Below, piece after piece: positions 4,510-31,746 of a stretch of 45,239 nucleotides of DNA (positions are counted from its first letter, which is position 1; the number at the start of each line of letters is the position of its first letter). The translations under genes and the position numbers were made by a program. This DNA comes from an uncultured Oscillatoriales cyanobacterium (GTDB lineage Bacteria; Cyanobacteriota; Cyanobacteriia; Cyanobacteriales; Microcoleaceae), in assembly GCA_903893625.1 (NCBI GenBank), contig CAITND010000019.1, positions 1-45,239 on the forward strand, read 5' to 3'. The notes beneath the pieces were generated by a model. The model saw only the letters and a program-made list of their open reading frames with translations. It was not told where the DNA came from and searched no databases.

Positions 4510-7236
4510 TCACCTAGCAACTGCACCAATCACAACCTCTCCCCGATTTTCTTTTTCTGCACATTCCTGATTTAATTCTAAGAGTTTTTCTAAAATATTA
4601 TCCTCGGATTTAAAATGATAGGCTTCCATAACTAACTGATCTAGTTTTTGATGCAATTTATAGAGTTTTGATGCAGGTTCATGGTAATATTCATTATAGA
4701 TTTTAGTAATTCCCCAGCCTTTTTTATCCATTTCTTGACTACGATATTCATGTAATTCTAATGCTGTTTTTCTGATTTTTTCTACTATATTTTTATCAGG
4801 ATTTTGGGGAAATGGGAAAGTTTCAAAACAGGTAGTATTAGTATATCTTGTACGATCTTCTAATGTAGAACTTTGTGCTTTCACCCAGATTCTATGAATT
4901 TTTGATGTTAATATTCCTAAAATATAATAATCATCTGATGCAATGACCATATTTGCTTCACAGGGTAAAATTAAAATATCTACAGGAGTAAACATAATAT
5001 ATTTAACAATTTTAGGAATAGCAAAATAACAAGATAATCCTTGTAATGCTTTTCTCATTGCCGGTCTAGGTCTGCTAAATAACCACCATTTTTCCCTTCT
5101 TGATTTTTCTCGTGATTCTTCTCTTTCAGGTTTTACTTTTTCTCTCACTCTTGCAAAAGGTAACTCATATTCTGATGCTTCTTCAATGGACATATTATTA
5201 AAATCTATAACCCAATCTTTTGTAGAAAAAGGATAAATTAAACCTTTTCCGTCCACCATAATTTTTAGCACATCTTGATTTTTCTGATCTTTTTTTATCC
5301 AATTCTGTGCAGTTTCTTCATCAATAATAAAACCTTTTCCTGCTAATTGACAACTTTCAAAAGACATATTTTTATTAGCTGATAAAGTTTGGGCGGTATT
5401 AACAGCTATTTCTGATTTTAATGCAGTAGAAATAGCAGCTACATTTTGACCATCTAAAATAAAATATGAGGGGTTTTCTTTTGACCAATTAACAATACTA
5501 ACGTGAACATTTGCATCTCCTGACCAAATTTGTGTAGAAACAGCATGATAAATAATTCCGCCCTTTTCTACTACATAATCTAAACTTGCTTTTCTTCCCG
5601 TAATTTGAGAAATAGAATTAGTACCAACTAAACCAGATCGCCCATTTTTTCCTAAAATATCGGCGGTTTTTCTAAACCAAAATACACAAAAATCTGGTTG
5701 TCCTTCTACTTCAGGAAATTTTCGTTTTAATTTTTCTACATAGTCATCACCTAAAGCACTTCTTAACTTTTTACCTCCCAAAAACGGAGGATTTCCAATA
5801 ATCACGTCCGCTTGCACCCAATCGGTAAATAAAGCATCAGCACAAATAATATTCTGATCCAAAGTATCCAATGGTAACGAAGACTCATTTAACCCTAATT
5901 GATCAATAGCAACTTTTCTACCGATCATTAACGTAACTTTTGCCAATTCCACAGCAAAGGCGTTAATATCCATGCCATAAAATTGTTGAGGACTGACCTT
6001 TTGAGTATAAACAGAAATATCCTCAAAATTGGCTATTTTCTCCAAGAGTATTGTCTCAATATATTTTAACTCTTGATAAGCAACATAGAGAAAATTCCCC
6101 GATCCACAAGCCGGATCAAGAATTTTATAATTGATTAATTCATGATATAATAATTGTAACTCCTTTAAGGTATTAGCTTCACTAATTCTATCTTCCCAAT
6201 ATTCCCGAATTGTCGGTAATACAATACTTCTAATATCAGCTTCAGAGGTAAAATGAATTCCATGAGCATGACGTTGTTGTTGGGATTTATCCTTAGTTTT
6301 ATCTGTATAATTCAAAGCACCTTCAAATAAATTTCCAAAAATAGAAGGACGGACTTTACTCCAATCTTGACCCGCACAGGCCAATAATAAACTTAACTCC
6401 CCATATTCTAACTGAATCGGATGAATTTCATCAAATAATCCGCCATTAAAATATTGTACGCCTTCATAGCGTCCATCGGGTACAACCCCGGTTTGATTCA
6501 TTGCTTGAAATAATCCGCCTAAAATATCATAGGAATTACCTTGATTTTCCAGACAATCTTGTAAACAACGGGTAAACATTGCCGGAGGAAGTAAACCAAT
6601 ATCTTCCGCATACATGGCTAAAACAGACTGTAAAACAAAGTGTTGTGCTTGGATGGAAGTATATTTTCTAAAATTATTTCTTTCACCTCTTTCTAATAAA
6701 GAATGTAAAACATCTCCTAAGCGTCTGGCTGCTTTTTCTGTAATTTCAACTTGATTATTTTTAAACTGAGGGCGGAGATTTTTCGCCTCCAGAAAGCTAA
6801 AAGCTGGAATGCGTTTTGGTAAATCTTGTAACCCGATTATATCAACAGGATCGTCCGGTTGGTTATCAAAATCAAAAACATGAAATTCATCAAAGTTACA
6901 TAAAATGACATAACGAGGGCGATCGCTTTTTTTAATTCTAATATAATATCGTTCAGCTTGGGTACGATAGTCTCGATCTTGAAGATTGCTTCCCCGTTTT
7001 TTCATCTCAATTAAAACATGATTTTTCCAGAGTAAATCAGCAAACCCCATATTTCCTGATTTCCCAGCTTTTTCAATGCGTTGTTCAAAAGTTGCACCCG
7101 CTTGTAATGCACCTTCATATCCAAAAGCCTGAAAAAAACGATCTAAAAATATTTGTGCCTGTCCCTTTTCATCCCCAGTAATATACTGTTGACAATAATT
7201 AACAAACTGTTGCAAATTTTCCGGTGTAGTAGGCAT
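4510..7236 (-). CDS. MmeI-like single-chain (type IIL/IIG) restriction-modification enzyme
   Basis: A fusion enzyme that should methylate adenine in its target and cut unmodified DNA at a fixed distance. Counting from ATG 7236, the N-terminal nuclease carries D67, then nine residues, then E77-x-K79 (IEMKKRG), the same D-x9-ExK arrangement as MmeI D70/E80/K82. A helical spacer follows, then an amino-methyltransferase with the SAM motif DPACGSGNF near residue 375 and catalytic NPPF near 480. The C-terminal third should hold the target-recognition domain. Length of 908 aa is close to MmeI (919). An in-frame TTG at 7242 is a weaker start. No separate methylase, specificity or nuclease gene is adjacent, as expected for this class. 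It is not BREX PglX: no other brx genes are present and the N-terminal nuclease is intact. Target sequence cannot be read from the protein. Confidence 0.85.
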   Translation of the reverse strand: MPTTPENLQQFVNYCQQYITGDEKGQAQIFLDRFFQAFGYEGALQAGATFEQRIEKAGKSGNMGFADLLWKNHVLIEMKKRGSNLQDRDYRTQAERYYIRIKKSDRPRYVILCNFDEFHVFDFDNQPDDPVDIIGLQDLPKRIPAFSFLEAKNLRPQFKNNQVEITEKAARRLGDVLHSLLERGERNNFRKYTSIQAQHFVLQSVLAMYAEDIGLLPPAMFTRCLQDCLENQGNSYDILGGLFQAMNQTGVVPDGRYEGVQYFNGGLFDEIHPIQLEYGELSLLLACAGQDWSKVRPSIFGNLFEGALNYTDKTKDKSQQQRHAHGIHFTSEADIRSIVLPTIREYWEDRISEANTLKELQLLYHELINYKILDPACGSGNFLYVAYQELKYIETILLEKIANFEDISVYTQKVSPQQFYGMDINAFAVELAKVTLMIGRKVAIDQLGLNESSLPLDTLDQNIICADALFTDWVQADVIIGNPPFLGGKKLRSALGDDYVEKLKRKFPEVEGQPDFCVFWFRKTADILGKNGRSGLVGTNSISQITGRKASLDYVVEKGGIIYHAVSTQIWSGDANVHVSIVNWSKENPSYFILDGQNVAAISTALKSEIAVNTAQTLSANKNMSFESCQLAGKGFIIDEETAQNWIKKDQKNQDVLKIMVDGKGLIYPFSTKDWVIDFNNMSIEEASEYELPFARVREKVKPEREESREKSRREKWWLFSRPRPAMRKALQGLSCYFAIPKIVKYIMFTPVDILILPCEANMVIASDDYYILGILTSKIHRIWVKAQSSTLEDRTRYTNTTCFETFPFPQNPDKNIVEKIRKTALELHEYRSQEMDKKGWGITKIYNEYYHEPASKLYKLHQKLDQLVMEAYHFKSEDNILEKLLELNQECAEKENRGEVVIGAVAR

Positions 7237-7407
7237 AAGCAAAATCGGTGATTAACCCTATTATTTCTTTGTACAACCCATTTAGACTTACTATAGGTTT
7301 TGATAGACAAACAACAGCAAAAAACCCAGTTTTTGATCACGGAAATTGACTTTACATAAAATAGCGATCGCAAATGTTATCGCCATCAACCGGGAGCGTG
7401 TTGACAA

Positions 7408-19956: not shown

Positions 19957-22509
19957 ATGTTAAATAAAGCTTTGATGAATTTAGGGATTTTACCCATTTT
20001 ATTATTCAATAATTTTACCTTAATTTCTCTCAACTCTCAACCTCTGATAGAGGAAATTATTGTTCAGAATAATACAACTGATCCCGCCATCTTATTTCAA
20101 CAGGGAAAACAATATTATACTCAAGGACAATATGCTGAAGCTGCTGAAGTTTTACAACAGGCTATTTTAGGGTTTTCTCAACAGGGAGATCGTGTTAATC
20201 AAGCGATCGCATTAAGTAACCTCTCCTTAGTTTTACAACAGTTAGGACAAGGGGAACAAGCAGAAAAAATATTACAGGAAAGTTTGGAATTAATTAACGA
20301 GTTATCCTTTTCTAAAAAATCCTTGATTCTGGCTCAAATTTTAGAGATTAAAGGTCAGTTAGAACTCACTAAAGGACAACCTGAACAAGCGATTAAAACT
20401 TGGAGAGAAGCTTTTAAACTCTATTCTGAAGCGGGAAATTTGTTAGGGAAAATTACTAATCAAATCAACCAAGCAACGGCGTTACAAACTTTAGGACTCT
20501 ATCGACAATCTTTGAATACTTTAACAGAAGTCAACGAAATTCTAAAATCTCAACCGGATTCTTTAACGAAAGCAACGGCTTTATTAAGTTTAGGGAATGC
20601 GTTAAGACAAGTGGGAGATTTAACCACCTCTCAAATAATTTTACAGCAAAGTTTGGAATTAGCAACAACCTCAAATTATTCTCAAATTTTGAGTCAAATC
20701 TATTTAAGCTTGGCTAATACAAATCGCACTCAAAATAATTTAGATATTGCTTTAGGCTATTATCAAAGTTCGGCAAAAACAGCTACTAATTCTTTAGAAA
20801 AACTGCAAGCTTTAATTAATCAATATAGTTTACTTGTTGACTTAAAACGAAGTCAGGAAGCTGAAGCTCTAGCCACAGAAATTGAGTCTTATCTCTCGGA
20901 AGTTCCTGTTAGTCGTAGTTTAGTTTATGGAATTGTAAATTTTACAAACCATTTAATTAAAGCTCAATATAATTCAGGTTTAACTACTAATAATCCTGAA
21001 ATTATTACTCTTTTTAATACAGCAATTAAACAGGCTCAAAACCTGAAAGATCTGCGTTCAGAATCTTATGTTTTAGGAAGTTTAGGCAAATTTTACGAAC
21101 AAAATCAACAACCCTTAGAAGCTATAAATTTAACTGAAAAAGCGTTATTGATTGCTCAATCGATTAATGCCTCTGATATTGCCTATCAATGGCAATGGCA
21201 ACTGGGAAGACTCCTCAAACAACAAAATAAAAAAGATGAAGCGATCGCAGCCTATACAGAAGCTGTTAATACTCTAAAATCCTTAAGAAAAGACTTAGTA
21301 GCTATTAACCAAGATGTGCAGTTTTCTTTTCGAGAAAGTGTCGAACCTGTTTATCGAGAATTAGTCGATTTAATTTTACAATCTCCCAGTCCAGAAAACC
21401 TCACAAAAGCCCGTGAACTGATAGAATCCTTGCAAGTCGCTGAACTGGATAACTTTTTCCAAGAAGCCTGTTTAGATCAAGAAATTAAACCTCAACAAAT
21501 TGATCAAATTGATTCCCAAGCAGCCGTAATTTATCCGATTATTCTAGCTAATCGCTTAGAAGTTATTCTCTCCCTTCCAGGGCAACCTTTACAGAACTAT
21601 TCTACTACAATCTCCCAAGAAAAAGTTGAAACTACTCTTCGTGAATTAAGACAATCTTTTCAACCGATTTTTTCTACCCAAGATCGGTTACAATTATCTC
21701 AACAGGTTTACGACTGGCTGATCCGTCCGGCGGAACAAGAACTCAAAAATAATTCTATTAAAACCTTGGTTTTTGTCTTAGATGGTTCCCTGCGGAATGT
21801 GCCGATGGCGGCTCTTTATGATGGCAAAAACTATCTGATCCAAACCTATGATCTAGCCCTAACTCCCGGTTTAAAACTGCTGGCTTCTCGTTCTTTAAAC
21901 CGGAATCAACTGCAAACATTAACAGTCGGATTAAGTGAAGCCCGTCAAGGGTTTTCTGCCTTACCTGCGGTGGCTTCAGAAATTCAACAAATCCAGGCAG
22001 AAATTCCGACAAAAGTTTTATTTAATCAACAATTTACCCGTGAGGCTGTTCAACAACAAATTCAAGAAACTGCCTTTCCGATTGTGCATTTAGCCACTCA
22101 CGGACAATTTAGTTCAAAAGCGGAAGATACATTTTTATTAACTTGGGATAGCCGAATTAATGTTAAAGATTTAGATTATTTTCTCCGCAGTCGCCAACGC
22201 GGTGAACAAAACCCCGTTGAATTATTAGTCTTAAGTGCTTGTGAAACCGCAACCGGAGATCAACGAGCCGCCTTGGGGTTAGCAGGTGTCGCCGTGCGTT
22301 CGGGTGCGCGGAGTACCTTGGCTACCTTATGGCAGGTCAATGATACCTCCACCGCTTCCCTGATGGCAGAATTTTATCAAGAATTAACCCAGAAACAAGT
22401 CAGTAAAGCCGAAGCCCTGCGCCAAGCCCAGTTAAAGCTGTTACAACAGCCTAAATATCAAGATCCCTATTACTGGGCTCCCTTTGTTTTGGTGGGAAAT
22501 TGGCAATAG
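19957..22509 (+). CDS. TPR-CHAT domain protein (caspase-like peptidase)
   Basis: The 850-residue product begins with a signal-like hydrophobic segment (about 5-30), then TPR repeats from about 40 to 440, a helical linker, and a CHAT domain from about 560 to the end. CHAT is a clan CD cysteine-peptidase fold (caspase/separase related). Both catalytic positions are intact: H715 in HLATHGQF and C762 in LSACETATGD. ATG 19957 has an AGGAAGG site 6 bases upstream. It leads a probable operon with a DUF928 gene (about 130 bp on) and a CHASE2 adenylate cyclase (16 bp further on). TPR regions usually sense or bind the target; the substrate is unknown. Activity as a protease is inferred from the intact dyad. 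Confidence 0.92.
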   Translation: MLNKALMNLGILPILLFNNFTLISLNSQPLIEEIIVQNNTTDPAILFQQGKQYYTQGQYAEAAEVLQQAILGFSQQGDRVNQAIALSNLSLVLQQLGQGEQAEKILQESLELINELSFSKKSLILAQILEIKGQLELTKGQPEQAIKTWREAFKLYSEAGNLLGKITNQINQATALQTLGLYRQSLNTLTEVNEILKSQPDSLTKATALLSLGNALRQVGDLTTSQIILQQSLELATTSNYSQILSQIYLSLANTNRTQNNLDIALGYYQSSAKTATNSLEKLQALINQYSLLVDLKRSQEAEALATEIESYLSEVPVSRSLVYGIVNFTNHLIKAQYNSGLTTNNPEIITLFNTAIKQAQNLKDLRSESYVLGSLGKFYEQNQQPLEAINLTEKALLIAQSINASDIAYQWQWQLGRLLKQQNKKDEAIAAYTEAVNTLKSLRKDLVAINQDVQFSFRESVEPVYRELVDLILQSPSPENLTKARELIESLQVAELDNFFQEACLDQEIKPQQIDQIDSQAAVIYPIILANRLEVILSLPGQPLQNYSTTISQEKVETTLRELRQSFQPIFSTQDRLQLSQQVYDWLIRPAEQELKNNSIKTLVFVLDGSLRNVPMAALYDGKNYLIQTYDLALTPGLKLLASRSLNRNQLQTLTVGLSEARQGFSALPAVASEIQQIQAEIPTKVLFNQQFTREAVQQQIQETAFPIVHLATHGQFSSKAEDTFLLTWDSRINVKDLDYFLRSRQRGEQNPVELLVLSACETATGDQRAALGLAGVAVRSGARSTLATLWQVNDTSTASLMAEFYQELTQKQVSKAEALRQAQLKLLQQPKYQDPYYWAPFVLVGNWQ

Positions 22510-22638
22510 TTGGTAACTCTTAACCAGGGTTAATAAAATTAAAGTATTAGTGCATCAAACCTGACAGATTGGTCTCATGGGAGTCCTGTTCATTCTGATT
22601 CCATAATTTTTTGGTATTCTTTGGAGACTCATACCCTT

Positions 22639-23424
22639 ATGATTCGTAAACGTTTGCATCAACACTGGATTAGCCTGTCTCTCCTCACCCTTGTGGGAGG
22701 GGCGTTTGTTCCTCAACTGTCCGTTATGGCTCAACCTACCACTTCAGAGGGAATACAAATTAGTATGGCCTTTGAACCGCCACCAGGGGAAGGAATGCCG
22801 AGTCGCACCGCCGGAGGAGGGTCTCGCGGTCAATGTCCCAGCGTTGCTGAGGGAACCACCCCCCCCTTAATGGCCTTAGTCCCGGCTTTTTCTACTCAAA
22901 AAGAAACGGCCATCAAAGGATTAACGGTGGCGGCAACCCCCACATTCTTTTTCTATGTTCCTCAAATTCCGGCAACTGAGGCAGCTTTTAGCCTCAAAGA
23001 TGAAAACAACAACGACATCTACCAAACCCGTTTAGCGATTTCTAATCAAGCGGGTATCGTGAGTATTCAACTGCCCAAAGACACCCCCCCATTAAAAATT
23101 GGTCAAACCTATCGTTGGTCATTTGGGGTGATTTGTAATGCCGAAAACAACCAGGAGCCTAAAGTTGTTTTTGTCACTGGGGAAGTTAAAAGAACGGAAC
23201 CCGATGCGATGTTACAAGCTAAACTGCAACAAGCCGAACCCTTAGAACAAGCTAAAATTTATGCTGAAAATGGGATTTGGTTTGAAAGTTTAACAACCTT
23301 AGCTCAATTGCGTCAAACTCAACCGATGGATGGTACTTTAACTGAACAATGGAAACAACTTTTGGAATCCGTTGGTTTAGATGCCATTGCCAATCAACCG
23401 TTTGTGAATGGGCTTGAGAATTAA
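22639..23424 (+). CDS. DUF928 family exported protein
   Basis: The 261-residue product (from ATG 22639, MIRKRLHQHW) has a signal peptide ending about VMAQP, a Gly/Pro-rich stretch ([20 protein letters not shown]), then the DUF928 body with PLMALVP, TFFFYVP, YRWSFGVICN, and a helical C-terminal part. Two cysteines (in RGQCPS and VICNA) may pair. A TTG at 22621 is in frame but would add six residues before a complete signal peptide. DUF928 proteins have no known activity; in cyanobacteria they often neighbour CHAT proteins and CHASE2 cyclases (recalled), as here. The stop is 16 bp before the cyclase start, which suggests cotranscription. Confidence 0.88.
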   Translation: MIRKRLHQHWISLSLLTLVGGAFVPQLSVMAQPTTSEGIQISMAFEPPPGEGMPSRTAGGGSRGQCPSVAEGTTPPLMALVPAFSTQKETAIKGLTVAATPTFFFYVPQIPATEAAFSLKDENNNDIYQTRLAISNQAGIVSIQLPKDTPPLKIGQTYRWSFGVICNAENNQEPKVVFVTGEVKRTEPDAMLQAKLQQAEPLEQAKIYAENGIWFESLTTLAQLRQTQPMDGTLTEQWKQLLESVGLDAIANQPFVNGLEN

Positions 23425-23440
23425 TTAAGGTTCAAATCGA

Positions 23441-25399
23441 ATGAAGTATGGAGTTATGAAACAAAAACAAACGGTCTTCAGACTTCATACTTCTATCTGG
23501 CGCTTTTCTGAGCAATGGCTGAAGGCATTGCGTTATTTATGGTTAAGTCCTGTAATCACGGCTTCAGTTATTGCTCTGCAAAGTACAGGTTTTTTACAAC
23601 TTTTAGATTGGGCAACTTTAGATCAATTTATCCGGTGGCGACCCCTTGAATCTCCCGATCCCCGGATTGTAATTGTTACCATTGACGAACCGGATTTAAA
23701 AAAGCTCGGACAATGGCCGATTCCTGATGCTATTTTAGCAAAATTAATTGAAAAAATCAAAGCCCAAAAACCGATGGCGATCGGGTTAGATATTTATCGA
23801 AATTTACCTGTACAACCCGGACATGAAGACTTACTCAAGGTATTTAAAAGCACTCCAAATTTAATCGGTGTAGAAAAAGTTGTTGCCGATCAAAATCGGG
23901 CTTCTATTGAACCTCCTCCGATATTAAAAGATCAAGATCAAGTGGGGGCGGCGGATTTAGTGTTAGATGCGGATGGCAAAATTCGGCGGGCATTATTATC
24001 AATTAAACCCCCAGACCATCCTACTGTTTTGAATTTAGGGGTGAGAGTTGCTTTAATTTATTTACAAGCTCAAGGGATTACCCCTGAAATGACAGCGAAT
24101 CAGCAAGTAAAATTAGGGAAAGCTGAATTTATTCGATTTACTGAAAATGATGGGGGTTATGTTCGTGCCGATGATAATGGCTATCAAATCTTATTAAATT
24201 ATCGAGGATCGCAGGATAATTTTCAGCAAATTTCTATGACCCAAGTTTTAAATAATGAAATTCCTCCCGATTTAATGCGAGATAAAATAGTATTTATCGG
24301 CCCCTTTGCTCAAAGTTTAAATGATTTATTTTTTACTCCCTATACCAGTAATTTATTTAGTATTAATGATCGAACTCCAGGGGTAATTATTCATGCCAAT
24401 ATTGCCAGTCAAATTATTAGTAGTGCCTTAGATGGACGCACTTTAATTCATGTTTGGTCAGATCGGATGGAATGGTTTTGGGTTTTTGTCTGGTCAACTG
24501 TAGGCAGTAGTTTGGGATGGGTTTATGGGGGAACTCGCTGGACAGTTTATTTTTTAATTTTAGCCAGTGGTAGTTTAATTATAATTTCCTATGGTGCTTT
24601 TTTAAGTGAATGGTGGTTGCCCTTAGTTTCGCCCTTATTAGCATTAGTAAGTTCCGGGATGGTCGTAACGGCTTATATTGCCAATGTTGAACGTCAAGAT
24701 CGGAAAATGGTGATGACTTTATTTCAACGCTATGTTAACCCCAAAATCGCGGAAACGATTTGGCAAAATCGAGAGGATTTGTTACAAAAAGGTCAAATCA
24801 TGGGACAGAAAATGATCGCCACTGTCTTATTTACTGATATTAAAGGATTTAGTAGCATTGCTGAACACATGGAACCCGCTACGTTAATGACTTGGTTAAA
24901 TGAATATATGAATGCAATGGCGAATATTGTGTTTGAACATGATGGTGTTGTCGATAAATTTATGGGGGATGCGGTTATGGCGGTTTTTGGCGTTCCTATT
25001 CCTCGAAATTCTTCTCAAGAAATTGCTCAAGATGCAACGGCTGCGGTTTCCTGTGCCTTAGCAATGGGGGAAAAATTGCGATCGCTAAATCAACACTGGC
25101 AACAACAAAATCAACCGATGATTTCAATGCGAATTGGCATCGCTACTGGAATTGTTGTCACCGGAAGTTTAGGCAGTTCTCAACGCATGGAATATACAAC
25201 ATTAGGCGATAGTGTTAATATTGCTGCTCGTTTAGAAAGTTATGATAAATCGTTTTATAGTGAAGGACTGTGCCGCATCTTAATTAATGAAGAAACCCAT
25301 AAACAAATTAATGGTAAATTTCCCACTCGTTATGTCGGTCGTGTTCAATTATATGGTCGTCAACAATTAATTAATATTTATCAAGCCCTCAATGATTAA
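23441..25399 (+). CDS. CHASE2 membrane-bound adenylate cyclase (class III)
   Basis: Makes cAMP from ATP in response to an extracytoplasmic signal. The 652-residue product has an N-terminal membrane anchor (about 33-60), a periplasmic CHASE2 sensor (about 65-335), three hydrophobic helices (about 345-420) and a class III catalytic domain (about 455-650). Metal-binding D466 (FTDIKGF) and D510 (FMGDAVMAVFG) are present, as are transition-state N593 and R597 (SVNIAARLE). The base-selecting pair is K506 and T586, the Lys/Thr combination known from Spirulina CyaC, which indicates ATP rather than GTP. ATG 23441 and an internal ATG at 23456 are both possible. The tail codons lie inside a 46-bp tandem repeat. 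Confidence 0.95.
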   Translation: MKYGVMKQKQTVFRLHTSIWRFSEQWLKALRYLWLSPVITASVIALQSTGFLQLLDWATLDQFIRWRPLESPDPRIVIVTIDEPDLKKLGQWPIPDAILAKLIEKIKAQKPMAIGLDIYRNLPVQPGHEDLLKVFKSTPNLIGVEKVVADQNRASIEPPPILKDQDQVGAADLVLDADGKIRRALLSIKPPDHPTVLNLGVRVALIYLQAQGITPEMTANQQVKLGKAEFIRFTENDGGYVRADDNGYQILLNYRGSQDNFQQISMTQVLNNEIPPDLMRDKIVFIGPFAQSLNDLFFTPYTSNLFSINDRTPGVIIHANIASQIISSALDGRTLIHVWSDRMEWFWVFVWSTVGSSLGWVYGGTRWTVYFLILASGSLIIISYGAFLSEWWLPLVSPLLALVSSGMVVTAYIANVERQDRKMVMTLFQRYVNPKIAETIWQNREDLLQKGQIMGQKMIATVLFTDIKGFSSIAEHMEPATLMTWLNEYMNAMANIVFEHDGVVDKFMGDAVMAVFGVPIPRNSSQEIAQDATAAVSCALAMGEKLRSLNQHWQQQNQPMISMRIGIATGIVVTGSLGSSQRMEYTTLGDSVNIAARLESYDKSFYSEGLCRILINEETHKQINGKFPTRYVGRVQLYGRQQLINIYQALND

Positions 25400-27409: not shown

Positions 27410-28249
27410 ATGTTGAATCTGTTAATTGAACCTTTACAATATAGTTTCATGCAGCGATCGCTGATGATTGCTATTTTAGTAGGCATTATTTGTGCGGTTG
27501 TCGGTAGCTATTTAATGGTGCAACGATTAGCATTATTAGGAGATGCCATTAGTCATTCGGTTTTACCCGGTTTAGCGATCGCTTTTATCCTGAATGCTAA
27601 TATCTTTGTCGGGGCATTTATTGCCGGAATTTTGAGTACCATTTGCATGAATATTATTAGAACCTATTCCCGAATCAAAGAAGATGCGGCGATGGGAATA
27701 GTATTTTCTGCCTTTTTTGCGTTAGGAATTACGTTAATTACGTTAGTTCAAAAAGATAATAAAATTGACTTAAATCATTTTCTATTTGGCAATATTCTAG
27801 GAGTAACAGGAGATGATGTTAGAGATACCTTTATTATTGCTCTGATTATCTTAACTGTAGTCACCTTAATCTATAAAGAACTCCTGTTTTATACCTTCGA
27901 TCCCTTGGGTGCTGAAGCCACAGGTTTACCCGTCAATCTTCTCAATTTAGGATTAATGGGATTAATTGCCTTAACCATTGTTGCCAGTTTAAAAGCCGTT
28001 GGTGTTATCTTAGTTTTATCCCTATTAATTACTCCCGCAGCGACAGCTTATTTATTAGTAGAACGTCTGCATCTAGTGATGATATTAGGTGTAATAATTG
28101 GGGTAATTTCTAGTATTAGCGGAATGTACCTCAGTTATTTTTATAATCTACCTTCTGGCCCAGCCATTGTATTAGTAACATCCGGCTTATTCATCCTAAC
28201 ATTTTTATTCAGTCCCACCCAAGGACTATTAAAAATAAAACCAAAGTAG
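27410..28249 (+). CDS. Metal ABC transporter permease (ABC-3 family)
   Basis: The 279-residue permease of the Mn/Zn importer, with about eight transmembrane helices. The family stretch LMVQRLALLGDAISHSVLPG (about 40-60) is present, as is the conserved FDPLGAEATGLPV region (about 163-175) that contacts the ATPase. No Met or charge anomalies are seen. A GGTGCGT/ACGCACC hairpin immediately follows the stop codon and is probably the transcript end. Confidence 0.95.
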   Translation: MLNLLIEPLQYSFMQRSLMIAILVGIICAVVGSYLMVQRLALLGDAISHSVLPGLAIAFILNANIFVGAFIAGILSTICMNIIRTYSRIKEDAAMGIVFSAFFALGITLITLVQKDNKIDLNHFLFGNILGVTGDDVRDTFIIALIILTVVTLIYKELLFYTFDPLGAEATGLPVNLLNLGLMGLIALTIVASLKAVGVILVLSLLITPAATAYLLVERLHLVMILGVIIGVISSISGMYLSYFYNLPSGPAIVLVTSGLFILTFLFSPTQGLLKIKPK

Positions 28250-28274
28250 GGTGCGTAAGCCCCGCGCACGCACC
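28250..28274. repeat. GGTGCGT-ACGCACC hairpin at operon end
   Basis: GGTGCGT (28250-28256) and ACGCACC (28268-28274) form a perfect 7-bp stem immediately after the permease stop codon, with a GC-rich loop. There is no T-run, so it is better read as a repeat or RNA-stabilising hairpin than a classic terminator. The following 150 bp to the next gene's stop hold nothing else I can identify. Confidence 0.6.
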
Positions 28275-28425
28275 ATCTAAGTACCCGCACAAAATTATTT
28301 GCACGACCGATTTCTTGCTCTCTATGTGTTTCAAGGGCTTTAGGTCAACCCAGTGTGTAATTAATTTTGTTTACATACTTAATATTATATTAACAGAAAA
28401 AAACTTTCATATTTAATAAATGTTG

Positions 28426-29181
28426 CTAAAACTCCACTTTAACCGTCAAGGTAAACTCATAGACTTCTTTTTTAAGTTGATCAATTTGAGCCTGTAAATC
28501 AAGATAAACTGGAACATTAATATCAGCAATTGCTTTAAAATTTTTCTTAAATTCCTCACTGAGACTTAAAGTTAATTCTCGACTTTGTAGAGGATTACTA
28601 CCCGATCTTTGATCAATTAGAGTTGTCATAGAATGATCGCTTAACAGTTGATATTTATTTAGATGAGCTTCAGCTTTTTCTATATTCGGATTTCCCCCTG
28701 GAAATGTACTCCGAATTTTAAGTTGATTCCGTATTTGTTCCAAGGTTTTACTCTGTGCTTCAAGATTTCCCGTAACCCCAGAACTATTTAGAGAACCTTT
28801 ATAAACTTGCTTTCCTGTTGAAGTTTTGACTTCGATTTGTTCTACCGTAACTTCTCGCGCACCGAGTAACCCGCATAAAGTCGTAAAATGAAGATATTTT
28901 GCTAATGCAAAGGTTGAAGCCGATTTCTCAAGAACAACATAATCCGATGAATCATAAGGATTTTGAATTAATAAAGATCCTTCTTCCAAAAGTCCACTAT
29001 TTTCTAATTTTTTTTCTAAAAAACTTGATGCTTCCTCGGAAGGAACTAAAAGATGAACTTGATCACTTAAAAGTAAATCATTCCCACCCGAAATATATTC
29101 TAGTCGAGTCAAATCGTGAGAAGAAATAACTAAAATAGCCTTGCGTTTTCTAGGAGGAACTGCATCAATATCAATATTCAT
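28426..29181 (-). CDS. Unknown protein, third gene of the GTPase operon
   Basis: From ATG 29181 the product is 251 residues, starting MNIDIDAVPPRKRKAILVIS. A GTG start at 29334 would add 51 low-complexity residues rich in Pro, Asn and Gln and would overlap the previous gene by 115 bp in another frame. The body alternates predicted beta strands and helices: a strand-rich N-terminal region with a DLTRLEYISGGNDLLLSDQV stretch, a middle part containing LCGLLGAREVTVEQIEVKT, and a C-terminal amphipathic helix plus strands ending FTLTVKVEF. No signal peptide or membrane segment. No family recognised. It follows the two-TM gene by about 40 bp, so is probably translated from the same message. Function unknown. 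Confidence 0.7.
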   Translation of the reverse strand: MNIDIDAVPPRKRKAILVISSHDLTRLEYISGGNDLLLSDQVHLLVPSEEASSFLEKKLENSGLLEEGSLLIQNPYDSSDYVVLEKSASTFALAKYLHFTTLCGLLGAREVTVEQIEVKTSTGKQVYKGSLNSSGVTGNLEAQSKTLEQIRNQLKIRSTFPGGNPNIEKAEAHLNKYQLLSDHSMTTLIDQRSGSNPLQSRELTLSLSEEFKKNFKAIADINVPVYLDLQAQIDQLKKEVYEFTLTVKVEF

Positions 29182-29219
29182 CGATTCTTCTGGATTACTA
29201 TTATCAGGTTGATTAGGGA

Positions 29220-29840
29220 TTATTTCAGGTTGAATTTGCTCTGATTTGGATTGCTCAGGAATATTTGCAGGGCCATTATCAATAGGTTGTTCAGTCCTAT
29301 TAATCCCCCAATTTGTAGCGGTGTTAATTGCCACCCTTGAAACTGTATCAGCAAGCTTACGGCTAAAGGAACGAAAAGACTTATTGACAAACTTATAAGA
29401 TTTATTTGCAACTGCACCTGCTTTTTTTTTGCTTCTAATTCCTCATTCAACCATTTTTCAATTGATTCTAATGTCCCGTTTTGTAATGTTCTTTTAATTT
29501 GATTGGAGATAACTTCTTGAATCTCATTACATACATTATTAACCCAGTCTGATGAGCCTTCCTCTGGGAACTCTCCATAGATAACAATTGGAGCCAGACG
29601 ATTACTTTCATCTTTCTCAACAGGTATAACCTCCATGACAAATTTAGGATCACTATAACGAACAGTAACCGATGGGCCATACTGTGCAATTTCTCTTTTT
29701 TTTGCGGGAATTTCGTAAATTTCTAAAACAAGTTGCTGCTCTAATTTATCATCAGATAATTCTTTTCTGTTTTTAATAATGACATCAGGAGATTCATTAT
29801 CAAGGCTTTGAACCCAAAATAATAGATTGAGATTGTTCAT
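29220..29840 (-). CDS. Two-transmembrane-helix protein of the GTPase operon
   Basis: A 206-residue product: a soluble N-terminal domain (1 to about 100, with beta-rich VLEIYEIP and VTVRYSDPKFVMEVIPV), an amphipathic helical stretch (about 105-143, Lys/Glu rich), and two C-terminal membrane helices (about 145-166 and 176-195). The layout suggests a cytosolic domain tethered to the membrane by a helical hairpin. Its ATG (29840) overlaps the GTPase stop by 4 bp, so translation is coupled. No family recognised. The last 115 bp also lie within an overlapping frame of the next gene. Confidence 0.75.
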   Translation of the reverse strand: MNNLNLLFWVQSLDNESPDVIIKNRKELSDDKLEQQLVLEIYEIPAKKREIAQYGPSVTVRYSDPKFVMEVIPVEKDESNRLAPIVIYGEFPEEGSSDWVNNVCNEIQEVISNQIKRTLQNGTLESIEKWLNEELEAKKKQVQLQINLISLSISLFVPLAVSLLIQFQGWQLTPLQIGGLIGLNNLLIMALQIFLSNPNQSKFNLK

Positions 29841-30523
29841 TTTTCTACCTGTCTGAAAATTTCTTTAATTAGATTATCTGCATCTTGTTTATTTGCTAAA
29901 CTTCCCAGAGCAACTTTAACTTTAGCCGATCCCCCAGCAAGCAGAGTGATTTTTTCTACAATGGGAAGGGATGTAAATTTATCCTGATAATCACCGATTG
30001 TATCAGGAGTAAGATTTTTAAATCGCGTATCAGAATCCCAATGATTTCCAACAATAAAGAATTGCTTTTTTTCTGTTGCACCTAGTTCTTTAATCCAGCT
30101 TTGAATGTGTTTTAGATCATTTTCACTTCGTTTTTCTGTAGCCGAATCTTGATCTAATAACCTATCTGTTCTTACGATATATAGAACTAAATCAGCCTCT
30201 TTAAAAAGTTTTTCCCAAACACCATAAGCTTTTTCAGCACCTGAAACATCATCAGTTTTTTTGATTAGAATATCCAGATCGCCGAGTTTAATGCGAGTTC
30301 TATCTATCTCGTCTTGGGTACGAGTTTGGTTATATTCCTTAATCAAAATCCCCTTTTCCATATATTTAAAAAGGGTGGTTTTGCCAACTCTCCTTGCTCC
30401 TAAAACGGCAATTTTCTTTCCCTTCAGGGAATAAACAATATTTTCCCAGTTAGAGGTAACTGATCCACTTACCACCGCGCCAACGGCAAAAGCGATAAAG
30501 ATTGGAACAAGAGGCAACGGCAT
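29837..30523 (-). CDS. Membrane-anchored small GTPase
   Basis: A 228-residue P-loop GTPase. A hydrophobic N-terminal segment (about 3-24, PLVPIFIAFAVGAVVSG) should anchor it in the membrane. G1 is GARRVGKTT at 42-50, a T/R-rich switch I region at about 66-78, G3 is DDVSG at 91-95 (DxxG), and G4 is NHWD at 160-163 (NxxD variant of NKxD). The length is small and no second domain follows, so it is of the Ras/Arf-like size. It heads a minus-strand operon with a two-TM protein (4-bp overlap) and an unknown protein. A TATAGT -10-like box lies 35 bp upstream. The GTPase fold is clear; the role is not. Confidence 0.85.
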   Translation of the reverse strand: MPLPLVPIFIAFAVGAVVSGSVTSNWENIVYSLKGKKIAVLGARRVGKTTLFKYMEKGILIKEYNQTRTQDEIDRTRIKLGDLDILIKKTDDVSGAEKAYGVWEKLFKEADLVLYIVRTDRLLDQDSATEKRSENDLKHIQSWIKELGATEKKQFFIVGNHWDSDTRFKNLTPDTIGDYQDKFTSLPIVEKITLLAGGSAKVKVALGSLANKQDADNLIKEIFRQVEK

Positions 30524-30557
30524 AAATATTAGACAAAATACATTTTTTAAGTCTTAA

Positions 30558-30563
30558 ACTATA
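30558..30563 (-). promoter_or_regulatory. Candidate -10 box of the GTPase operon
   Basis: The minus strand reads TATAGT, 35 bp upstream of the GTPase ATG. A TTTACA sequence lies 21 bp further upstream, too far for an ordinary -35, so an activator could be needed. The decamer repeats begin 28 bp upstream of the box. Confidence 0.35.
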
Positions 30564-30590
30564 CTAAAGTTCTTAGATAAAATCTGTAAA

Positions 30591-30668
30591 GACGGAAAAG
30601 GGCGGAAAAAGACGGCAATTTCTAAAATTTTAATGAAGGGCGGAAAAAGACGGAAAAAGACGGATATA
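30591..30668. promoter_or_regulatory. 10-bp-periodic GRCGGAAAAA repeat array (candidate operator)
   Basis: Two clusters of decamers. Cluster 1: GACGGAAAAG (30591-30600), GGCGGAAAAA (30601-30610), GACGG (30611-30615). Cluster 2: GGCGGAAAAA (30639-30648), GACGGAAAAA (30649-30658), GACGGATATA (30659-30668). The period equals one DNA turn, so the sites face the same side of the helix, and the clusters are offset by 48 bp. The array lies between the divergent HTH gene and GTPase operon and covers the -35 region of the HTH gene. Confidence 0.75.
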
Positions 30669-30670
30669 AT
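30665..30670 (+). promoter_or_regulatory. -10 box of the HTH gene
   Basis: TATAAT lies directly at the end of the second decamer cluster and 28 bp before ATG 30699. No canonical -35 is present because the repeats occupy that place, which fits an activator- or repressor-controlled promoter. Confidence 0.5.
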
Positions 30671-30698
30671 AACAGCAGGTTTTTTCAGGTCTTTACCG

Positions 30699-31229
30699 AT
30701 GGACATTCCTGATATATTACAGTTTGTAGATGAAGTTATCTCCTCTAAAACAGGCAAACATCTCAACGATTTGCAACGAGGAATTATTGAGGGAACACTG
30801 AAACGACAGAGGTATACTGACATTGCAGAAGCCTACGGTTGTACTGCGGGTCATGCTAAGGATGAGGGTTATAAGCTTTTACAAATATTATCTAATATCT
30901 TTAATGAAACGGTTGATAAAAATAATCTTAAATCTGTACTCGATAGACAAATAAATCTAAACATAAATCTTGCGAATAGTAATAATACTTTTGGTAATAG
31001 TAACACAATTAGTTATATCAATATTTGTCCAGATGATCCAACTCCTTCCTCAAATAAAAGTAAATCTCCTACTGTTAATACTAAAACCCGAAAAAACAAA
31101 GTTAATATAGAATTGATTAATAAATTACGGCTATTTGGCTTGAGTAATGAGCAAATTGCAGAAGCATTAAATCTTCCTTTAGATGTCATTAATCAAGAAG
31201 AGTCAGAAAATAAAATCTTACTTAAATAA
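30699..31229 (+). CDS. Stand-alone vMAP-type helix-turn-helix protein
   Basis: The 176-residue product starts at ATG 30699 (MDIPDILQFVDEVISSKTGK); an upstream ATG at 30633 would translate the decamer repeats as a Lys/Gly run and lies upstream of the TATAAT box, so I reject it. Residues 1 to about 78 match the HTH domain usually found at the N-terminus of vWA-MoxR-associated and NB-ARC/WD40 proteins of cyanobacteria: DLQRGIIEGTLKRQRYTDIA, GHAKDEGYKLLQILS, NNLKSVLDRQ. Normally that domain is fused to an NTPase or effector; here it stands alone. An Asn-rich linker follows, then a second helix-turn-helix-like tail, GLSNEQIAEALNLPLDVI. It is probably the regulator of the divergent GTPase operon and of itself. 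Confidence 0.75.
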   Translation: MDIPDILQFVDEVISSKTGKHLNDLQRGIIEGTLKRQRYTDIAEAYGCTAGHAKDEGYKLLQILSNIFNETVDKNNLKSVLDRQINLNINLANSNNTFGNSNTISYINICPDDPTPSSNKSKSPTVNTKTRKNKVNIELINKLRLFGLSNEQIAEALNLPLDVINQEESENKILLK

Positions 31230-31314
31230 CATAATATTGTTTGTTAATCGTCAAAGATTCGATTTAACGACAGTACCAGCCTCCTCGCTGGCTAGGGTTT
31301 AAAGTCTTTTCTAA

Positions 31315-31746
31315 CTAACCCTCGATTTCCTTAACCACCAAAACCGAACAATTTGCCTCCGAAACCACCTGAGAACTCACTGACCCTTGTAAAATTCGTT
31401 TCACTCCCGTTAGTCCCCGACTGCCAATAATAATCAAATCCGCCTGATAAATATTCGCTAAACGAACAATTTCCTCCGCCGGATCACCCGCCACAATCTC
31501 AATTTCACTTTGACAATCCAATTGATCCTGGTAAACTCGCAATTGCTTTTCCAAATGACGGTAAGGAAATTCATCAGTACCCGGATGAGGTCGATCCGCC
31601 ACCAAATCAAAATCCGATTCCACAGTCGGAACAACATGAGAGAAGATCACGTTTGTTGTGGGCTGCAATTGCAGTTGACCCAGTGCCTCAATCACAAACT
31701 TCGCAGTTGGTGAATCATCCACAGCAACTAAAATCGTATTCAGCAC
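31315..31746 (-). CDS. Universal stress protein (UspA family)
   Basis: A single-domain USP of 143 residues. The start is GTG 31746 (VLNTILVAVDDSPTAK): AGAGGAG lies 8 bases upstream, and the residues encoded further upstream do not resemble the family. The ATP-binding motif G-x2-G-x9-G-S is intact in GSRGLTGVKRILQGSVS, so it is probably an ATP-binding USP. Asp in VDDS is also conserved. Such proteins are induced by starvation and stress. It is a lone gene between the HTH gene (convergent) and hisD (same strand, about 180 bp upstream). Confidence 0.92.
   Translation of the reverse strand: MLNTILVAVDDSPTAKFVIEALGQLQLQPTTNVIFSHVVPTVESDFDLVADRPHPGTDEFPYRHLEKQLRVYQDQLDCQSEIEIVAGDPAEEIVRLANIYQADLIIIGSRGLTGVKRILQGSVSSQVVSEANCSVLVVKEIEG

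Follow-up and report, generated by a model that had tools for sequence, protein, structure and literature searches.

The window analysed here is a 45,239-nucleotide stretch of DNA (contig CAITND010000019.1, assembly GCA_903893625.1) from the 5.83-Mb genome of an uncultured Oscillatoriales cyanobacterium, and the system in question is a compact cassette of three genes faced by a fourth. On the minus strand, P0003 (29837..30523) encodes a 228-aa Ras/Arf/Roc-like GTPase with an N-terminal membrane anchor, P0002 (29220..29840) a 206-aa protein in which an alpha/beta domain precedes a two-transmembrane (two-TM) hairpin, and P0001 (28426..29181) a soluble alpha/beta protein of unrecognised fold that is the candidate effector; the families of P0002 and P0001 are without a Pfam match. 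As a preliminary description of this DNA had it, the three genes are tightly packed, those for P0003 and P0002 sharing a 4-bp ATGA overlap, and they are faced by a plus-strand gene, P0004, for a stand-alone helix-turn-helix (HTH) regulator, whose open reading frame (ORF) at 30633-31229 was present as called.

Comparison with homologues moves two gene starts. P0001 most likely begins at ATG 29181 and not at GTG 29334, because the corresponding Met is the first residue of the homologues from L029, L039 and L040. For P0004, the most likely start is ATG 30699 (30699..31229, plus strand) in place of 30633, as a 10-bp deletion in L026 breaks the frame upstream of this codon and relatives align from that Met. 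The divergent promoter region between the GTPase and HTH genes would then span 30524..30698; it is highly conserved in five Planktothrix copies, with few substitutions besides the deletion in L026. Two candidate operator clusters lie within it on the plus strand. The first (30591..30615) consists of the half-sites GACGG/GGCGG/GACGG at 10-bp spacing and adjoins a promoter-like TTTACA-18-TAGTAT of the GTPase operon (30590-30561), a type of match no more frequent than in shuffled sequence. The second (30639..30663) contains three half-sites at the same spacing, followed by TATAAT at 30665-30670. With the HTH start at 30699, these repeats would therefore be non-coding.

To define the distribution of the cassette, a GTPase search of 61 family genomes was combined with a P0001-profile scan of an 84,980-species collection; six duplicate loci were merged and a remnant in genome G336 was added, giving 17 copies. 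The collection scan requires one of two short peptide patterns, so that distant members may escape; it confirmed 9 loci from 396 pattern matches, in Planktothrix, Laspinema, Oscillatoria, Hydrocoleum, Roseofilum and Okeania. A GTPase match at E ≤ 0.001 was found in 13 of the 61 family genomes, the one in G340 being confined to a short part of a 499-codon frame that does not represent the cassette. The complete set, ordered GTPase, two-TM protein and unknown protein on one strand, is present in 11 of the 17 copies: the window, L025, L026, L027, L028, L029, L030, L034, L039 (Laspinema), L040 (an Oscillatoria metagenome-assembled genome) and L042 (Roseofilum). The other six are partial or decayed, and those retaining several genes agree with the same order. 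In L031 the middle gene was not found and the third is truncated, in L032 (Hydrocoleum) the GTPase gene is incomplete at a contig end, in L033 a GTPase fragment remains, in L035 the third gene is split over two frames, in L036 the GTPase and middle genes are broken, and the G336 remnant (L110) amounts to the last 51 codons of the third gene. One genome, G339, holds two diverged cassettes (L025 and L030), the latter with ~32-39% identity to the window and the HTH gene accompanying only the former.

Beyond these copies the families are scarce. Sequence searches of class genomes matched P0001 in 2 and P0002 in 4 of 291, and profile searches in 2 (the window and the G336 remnant) and 10 of 388, respectively; class-wide matches other than the window and the remnant were weak and short. 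Among mobile collections, no relatives were obtained for P0003 in plasmids or phages, for P0001 in plasmids, or for the P0001 alignment in IMG/VR. No internal stop interrupts the compared ORFs. Most pairwise dN/dS values fall at 0.1-0.5, and all listed pairs are below 1 except one, an HTH pair at 1.06 with very low dS; among close pairs the values are highest for the GTPase (0.58, 0.67 and 0.80 in three pairs). Together with a gene order kept down to ~21-28% identity, dN/dS values mostly below 1 argue that the pattern at the locus exceeds chance.

The preliminary description had proposed a four-gene system. The trio stands as a genuine unit whose members recur together; the fourth gene does not belong to it generally, since a P0004-type HTH gene adjoins the cassette in only 5 of the 17 copies (the window and L025-L028), all from Planktothrix. 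The cassette is thus a three-gene unit to which a genus-specific regulator has been joined.

P0003 has Pfam matches to Roc (E = 7.2e-7; 29.9 bits against a cut-off of 27) and Arf (6.2e-5), and a profile search of PDB chains returned G-alpha, Arl3 and Der among the best matches, mostly over the first half. The motifs previously described, an intact G1 (GARRVGKT), an intact G3 (DVSG) and an NHWD variant of G4, were all recovered. G47, K48, T67 and D92 are invariant across eight aligned GTPases, so that the P-loop G1, the switch-I Thr and the DxxG of G3 place the protein in the small Ras/Arf/Roc-like GTPase superfamily; G95 is lost in L026, where G3 reads DVSS. NHWD holds for the window protein and is not a family trait, as homologues carry NHWN, NHWT, NHWS, THCD or NYFG, and this degenerate G4 may alter guanine specificity. 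Two Okeania GTPases read DVGGQ, the Gln of which is missing from the other copies; in Ras/Arf biochemistry, loss of this Gln would mean slower hydrolysis. The predicted anchor corresponds to an N-terminal hydrophobic stretch (Kyte-Doolittle (KD) value 2.12), and such a peak occurs in 8 of 10 GTPases of a first set of family members. No COR domain was matched in P0003 at E ≤ 10, consistent with a single GTPase domain.

The C-terminal membrane hairpin described for P0002 was likewise borne out, by two hydrophobic stretches (KD 2.16 and 1.87) with counterparts in all 10 middle proteins of the first set; an Asn pair in the second helix is nearly invariant. Its predicted structure (pLDDT 75.9) gave no Foldseek match at E ≤ 0.001, the best being a LOV histidine kinase (3.6e-3). 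Other weak matches were to PAS/LOV folds and, at E 0.11-0.34, to FNIP2, GATOR1 and TRAPP chains, which we take to hold longin-type GTPase-partner domains. For P0001 (pLDDT 74.7), neither the fold search (best E 0.68) nor a sequence search of the PDB (best E 0.29) returned anything meaningful, and the PDB search with P0002 was equally bare (best E 0.037). Pfam, NCBIfam and PADLOC likewise offered nothing meaningful for either protein, and P0001 thus remains the unrecognised mixed alpha/beta protein of the earlier account; both alignments are shallow (nine rows), so that a fold could be missed. Scanning with PADLOC 2.0.0 produced no full-length match, with partial ones for P0002 and P0003 only (best 1.6e-4, over residues 34-67) and none for 10 P0001 family members. 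A likeness of P0001 to bacterial gasdermins, noted by eye, was set aside when neither profile nor fold backed it.

The borders of the cassette were delimited by blastn. Alignments to L026 and L028 span 28423-31201, to L027 28423-31212 and to L025 28402-31195, which defines a sharp-edged unit of 2.78 kb (28423..31201) common to different chromosomal contexts. L026 and L028 have other genes on both sides, and the window shares its left (znu) flank with L025 and its right (usp-hisD) flank with L027. No convincing terminal repeats frame the unit in 28200-31500, where none of nine inverted pairs does so, and no integrase was seen by eye in the flanks, no search having been aimed at integrases. Of ten Planktothrix genomes, nine were read past znuB (G338 being fragmentary there), and they differ in the gene that follows it; rearrangement therefore contributes.

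Neighbours within ~10 kb were scanned against Pfam for L030, L040 and L042, and by eye at other copies, save for the Okeania helicase and the PARIS genes. L030 lies near CHAT-CHASE2, DUF1822 and DUF928 genes; L040 near TPR-CHAT, CHAT-CHASE2 and a sigma-region-4 protein; and L042 near CHAT-NACHT and an HTH-TRADD-N-DUF1822 protein (L042:6854-8215), which has a different HTH and faces the Roseofilum cassette. Neighbours of the CHAT/CHASE2/DUF1822 type belong to kinds treated in Kaur et al. 2021 (PMC8195603). In G336 the order is znuB, the P0001 scar, and then AAA_15 and DUF4435 genes matching PARIS AriA (1.1e-30) and AriB (7.9e-44). A second AriA/AriB pair (4e-31 and 2.1e-19; L033:2065-4775), its AriB-like member lacking a Pfam match, lies ~4 kb from the GTPase fragment of L033, with an ilvB-like gene (by eye) between. 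An HKD+Snf2-type helicase with PADLOC matches to C3a139, BrxH and DrmD (L035:3092-5899) is ~3 kb from the Okeania cassette. In the window itself, a CHASE2-cyclase gene is ~3 kb and a TPR-CHAT gene ~6 kb from the cassette, beyond znu. Such a neighbourhood is no more than suggestive of a conflict role.

The HTH of P0004 was said to be of a type normally fused to NTPases, and its relatives agree. P0004 matches 16 places in its own genome at E ≤ 0.1, itself included. Among seven paralogues scanned, NB-ARC scored above cut-off in four (L050, L052, L054 and L055); L061 carries AAA_35, L060 a receiver domain, and L048 stands alone. By homology of its N-terminal HTH, P0004 belongs to the cyanobacterial NB-ARC-associated HTH family; as to the 'vMAP-type' label it was first given, the accessible portion of the VMAP paper (PMC7159879) describes no N-terminal HTH. 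P0004 has no ATPase; at its end comes another HTH-like stretch (Sigma70_r4_2, E 0.013, below cut-off). Relatives in other genera have 49-61% identity over most of the length, and at E ≤ 1e-8 the family was matched in 26 of 40 genomes from the order, its own genome among them. Divergent partners were scanned at 8 of 17 HTH loci (15 relatives plus L077 and L078) and otherwise read by eye. Stand-alone HTH genes face ThiF (L083), TerD (L086), NYN (L087 and L077), an AHH nuclease (L107) or DUF6232 (L082); the AHH match at L078 is below cut-off, and the scan gave no partner domain at L081. By eye, stand-alone HTH relatives also face an ATP-grasp peptide-maturase-like gene with a precursor (L085:2-1296) and a peptidase-like gene (L109:2185-3147).

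The 10-bp repeats are linked to this HTH family. A pattern derived from the window, whose four matches there (0.08 expected) hold by construction, occurs five times in 5.83 Mb. Outside the window locus it thus occurs once, and the reversed control pattern also has one match. That single occurrence lies in the upstream DNA of the nearest stand-alone HTH paralogue (C182), ~100 bp away, where the two-cluster layout is seen again with less regular half-sites; this paralogue faces an NYN gene, behind which lies a gene whose CSD match is weak (E 0.0032, below cut-off). Among the relatives, 5 of the 15 loci read have the CGG pattern itself. For a self-match test across lags, 46 loci gave 42 upstream regions (L049 duplicates L078; L060, L061 and L062 were not retained). 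A lag-10 self-match score of at least 8 was reached in 24 of the 42 (9 of 13 from the own genome, 15 of 29 from others), and lag 10 was the best of 26 lags in 19, compared with 12 and 16 of 164 control ORFs and, once 12 ORFs overlapping HTH promoters were purged, 0 and 4 of 152. The enrichment has p = 1.7e-11, or 1.1e-13 with purged controls, values that overstate independence as the 42 regions are related. In the own genome, 9 of 13 HTH upstream regions have p < 0.05 for a 10/11-bp self-match. From this association, P0004 is proposed to bind the repeats.

Taken together, the recurring GTPase trio and a Planktothrix regulator beside spaced repeats suggest a new kind of switchable cell-defence module. 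Our preferred reading, to which we give about an even chance, is a movable three-gene conflict cassette, probably anti-phage or cell-suicide in function, with an HTH regulator added in Planktothrix. In such a model, the membrane-tethered GTPase P0003 would be the sensor or switch; P0002, its soluble alpha/beta domain carried on the two-helix hairpin, would be the membrane partner of the GTPase; and soluble P0001 would probably act as the effector or as a subunit that releases it. In Planktothrix, the stand-alone HTH would bind the half-sites of 10-bp period and control both its own gene and the GTPase operon, tandem sites on the same face allowing it to hold the divergent promoters under joint control, whether by repression or activation. 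A signal would raise operon expression, and the GTPase in its GTP state would engage the hairpin protein at the membrane, by which P0001 might be freed or recruited. Protein contacts, GTP gating, the membrane effect and the defence function are all put forward here as parts of a model.

Several observations weigh against this interpretation. A P0004-type HTH gene is missing beside 12 of the 17 copies, L030 and L110 included. No known effector domain or fold turned up in P0001 or P0002. A canonical NKxD is absent from G4, two Okeania GTPases lack the N-terminal anchor, and the Roseofilum middle protein, outside the first set of 10, has no second TM helix. PARIS genes adjoin the scar in a single clear case without a rate control, and DUF1822 turns up in 58 of 60 family genomes, with as many as 13 matches in one, so that its proximity is weak support. 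Two further ideas were abandoned: that the znuB site is a constant hotspot for defence genes, given the varied genes that follow it among the nine genomes, and that a -10 box lies near the repeats family-wide, for which no enrichment was seen (9 of 24, with 7.1 expected).

The absence of an effector domain would also suit a GTPase/membrane module for ordinary signalling or polarity, comparable to MglA/MglB or to the actinobacterial conservons, with no part in defence. Small GTPase operons with small partners do exist, as in the conservons with their roadblock protein and Ras-like GTPase, and the weak resemblance of P0002 to FNIP2, GATOR1 and TRAPP chains fits. A patchy, decaying distribution, different contexts and conflict-gene neighbours would be unusual for a housekeeping polarity module, however, and P0001 and P0002 have no Pfam roadblock or histidine-kinase match. 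We regard this explanation as unlikely, though deserving of real weight. Rather improbable is a toxin-antitoxin (TA)-like addiction unit, with P0001 or P0002 as a toxin held in check by the GTPase, and with an HTH that regulates itself as at an antitoxin promoter. Compactness, different contexts, decay in relatives and repeats reminiscent of autoregulation accord with it, as do PIN/VapB-like genes (by eye) beside L026, L029 and L039; a three-subunit make-up that includes an NTPase switch is not typical for TA systems, the HTH is missing from most copies, and Pfam, NCBIfam and PADLOC scans gave no TA family match. That the repeats are promoter or low-complexity features of A-rich upstream DNA and no HTH operator, as their A-rich half-sites and the HTH regions without them might suggest (18 of 42 scoring below 8; L054, L057, L060 and L061, the 4 of 13 own-genome regions without a significant 10/11-bp repeat), is very unlikely given the period-specific signal (lag 10 scores 9.79 on average, the 25 other lags 3.6-6.8, and purged controls 3.96 at lag 10), the sole other genome match upstream of the nearest stand-alone paralogue and the recurrence of the CGG pattern in relatives, and its already low probability was lowered further because the purged control was cleaner.

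The cassette, on the conflict-cassette reading, was set beside known systems. Among those near in kind are the DO-GTPase/GAP1 systems (System 2, Kaur et al. 2020, PMC7159879), which share mobile neighbourhoods, a TRAFAC GTPase switch and partner and TM components; their defining features are GAP1 and a Walker-B glutamate conserved in the GTPase, and they are reported to be nearly absent from cyanobacteria. No GAP1 model appeared among Pfam matches of 10 P0001 and 10 P0002 members at E ≤ 1 (the library's GAP1 content being unchecked), and no invariant Glu lies near G3 in the GTPase alignment. AP-GTPase (Roc-COR) conflict systems (Kaur et al. 2020 and 2021) are alike in that Roc is the best Pfam match of P0003, and differ in that P0003 is a 228-aa single domain without COR. 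The SLATT two-TM effectors (PMC7159879) likewise place a two-TM protein in a GTPase neighbourhood; the cassette differs in having no SLATT match and a C-terminal hairpin after an alpha/beta domain. The conservons (CvnA-D) resemble it as operons of a small GTPase and small partners.

MglA/MglB is a small GTPase operon with a small partner. The cassette differs from it and from the conservons, having no histidine-kinase-like or roadblock protein by sequence and a partner with a TM hairpin. In the signal-recognition-particle receptor, SRbeta is a TM-anchored Arf-like GTPase with a longin-like partner, SRalpha; this is an analogy only, the P0002 fold match being weak and no sequence relation having been found. 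NB-ARC/STAND ATPases with an N-terminal HTH have an HTH paralogous to that of P0004, which is without the ATPase. No report joining cyanobacteria, NB-ARC, HTH and direct repeats, or Planktothrix, GTPase and HTH, was found in the open literature searched, which does not establish absence from print, and neither the trio nor the 10-bp operator was recognised among the matches listed by broader searches of that literature.

The locus thus offers a candidate GTPase-based conflict cassette with two Pfam-less families, in a phylum where the GTPase-centric systems described so far are reported as nearly absent (PMC7159879). The tandem half-sites are a concrete, testable DNA target for the cyanobacterial HTH-NB-ARC family, and such a target could show what immune-type NB-ARC ATPases do and how cyanobacterial conflict genes are switched. 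More tentatively, and at clearly less than an even chance, the stand-alone HTHs may be interchangeable switch modules, each divergent to a different, swappable conflict cassette (GTPase/membrane trio, NYN, AHH nuclease, E1-like or TerD) and reading its own variant of the 10-bp-period operator, with the GTPase trio as a new type of abortive-infection system made from two protein families of unknown kind.

Some further features were noted around these loci. The window carries a conflict/sensory-type cluster on the plus strand (19957-25399), with TPR-CHAT, a gene like the L030 DUF928 gene and CHASE2-cyclase in a row, and, on the minus strand (4510-7242), an MmeI-like type IIG restriction-methyltransferase (PADLOC REase_MTase_IIG, 1101 bits). 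Next to the L026 cassette (L026:10193-12350), several small genes resemble PIN and antitoxin genes by eye. An AriA/AriB-like or ATPase-Toprim-like pair lies near a ThiF/HTH locus at L111:7997-9894, and after znuB in G340 (L129:4884-5889) a repeated motif read as ORFs is CRISPR-array-like by eye.

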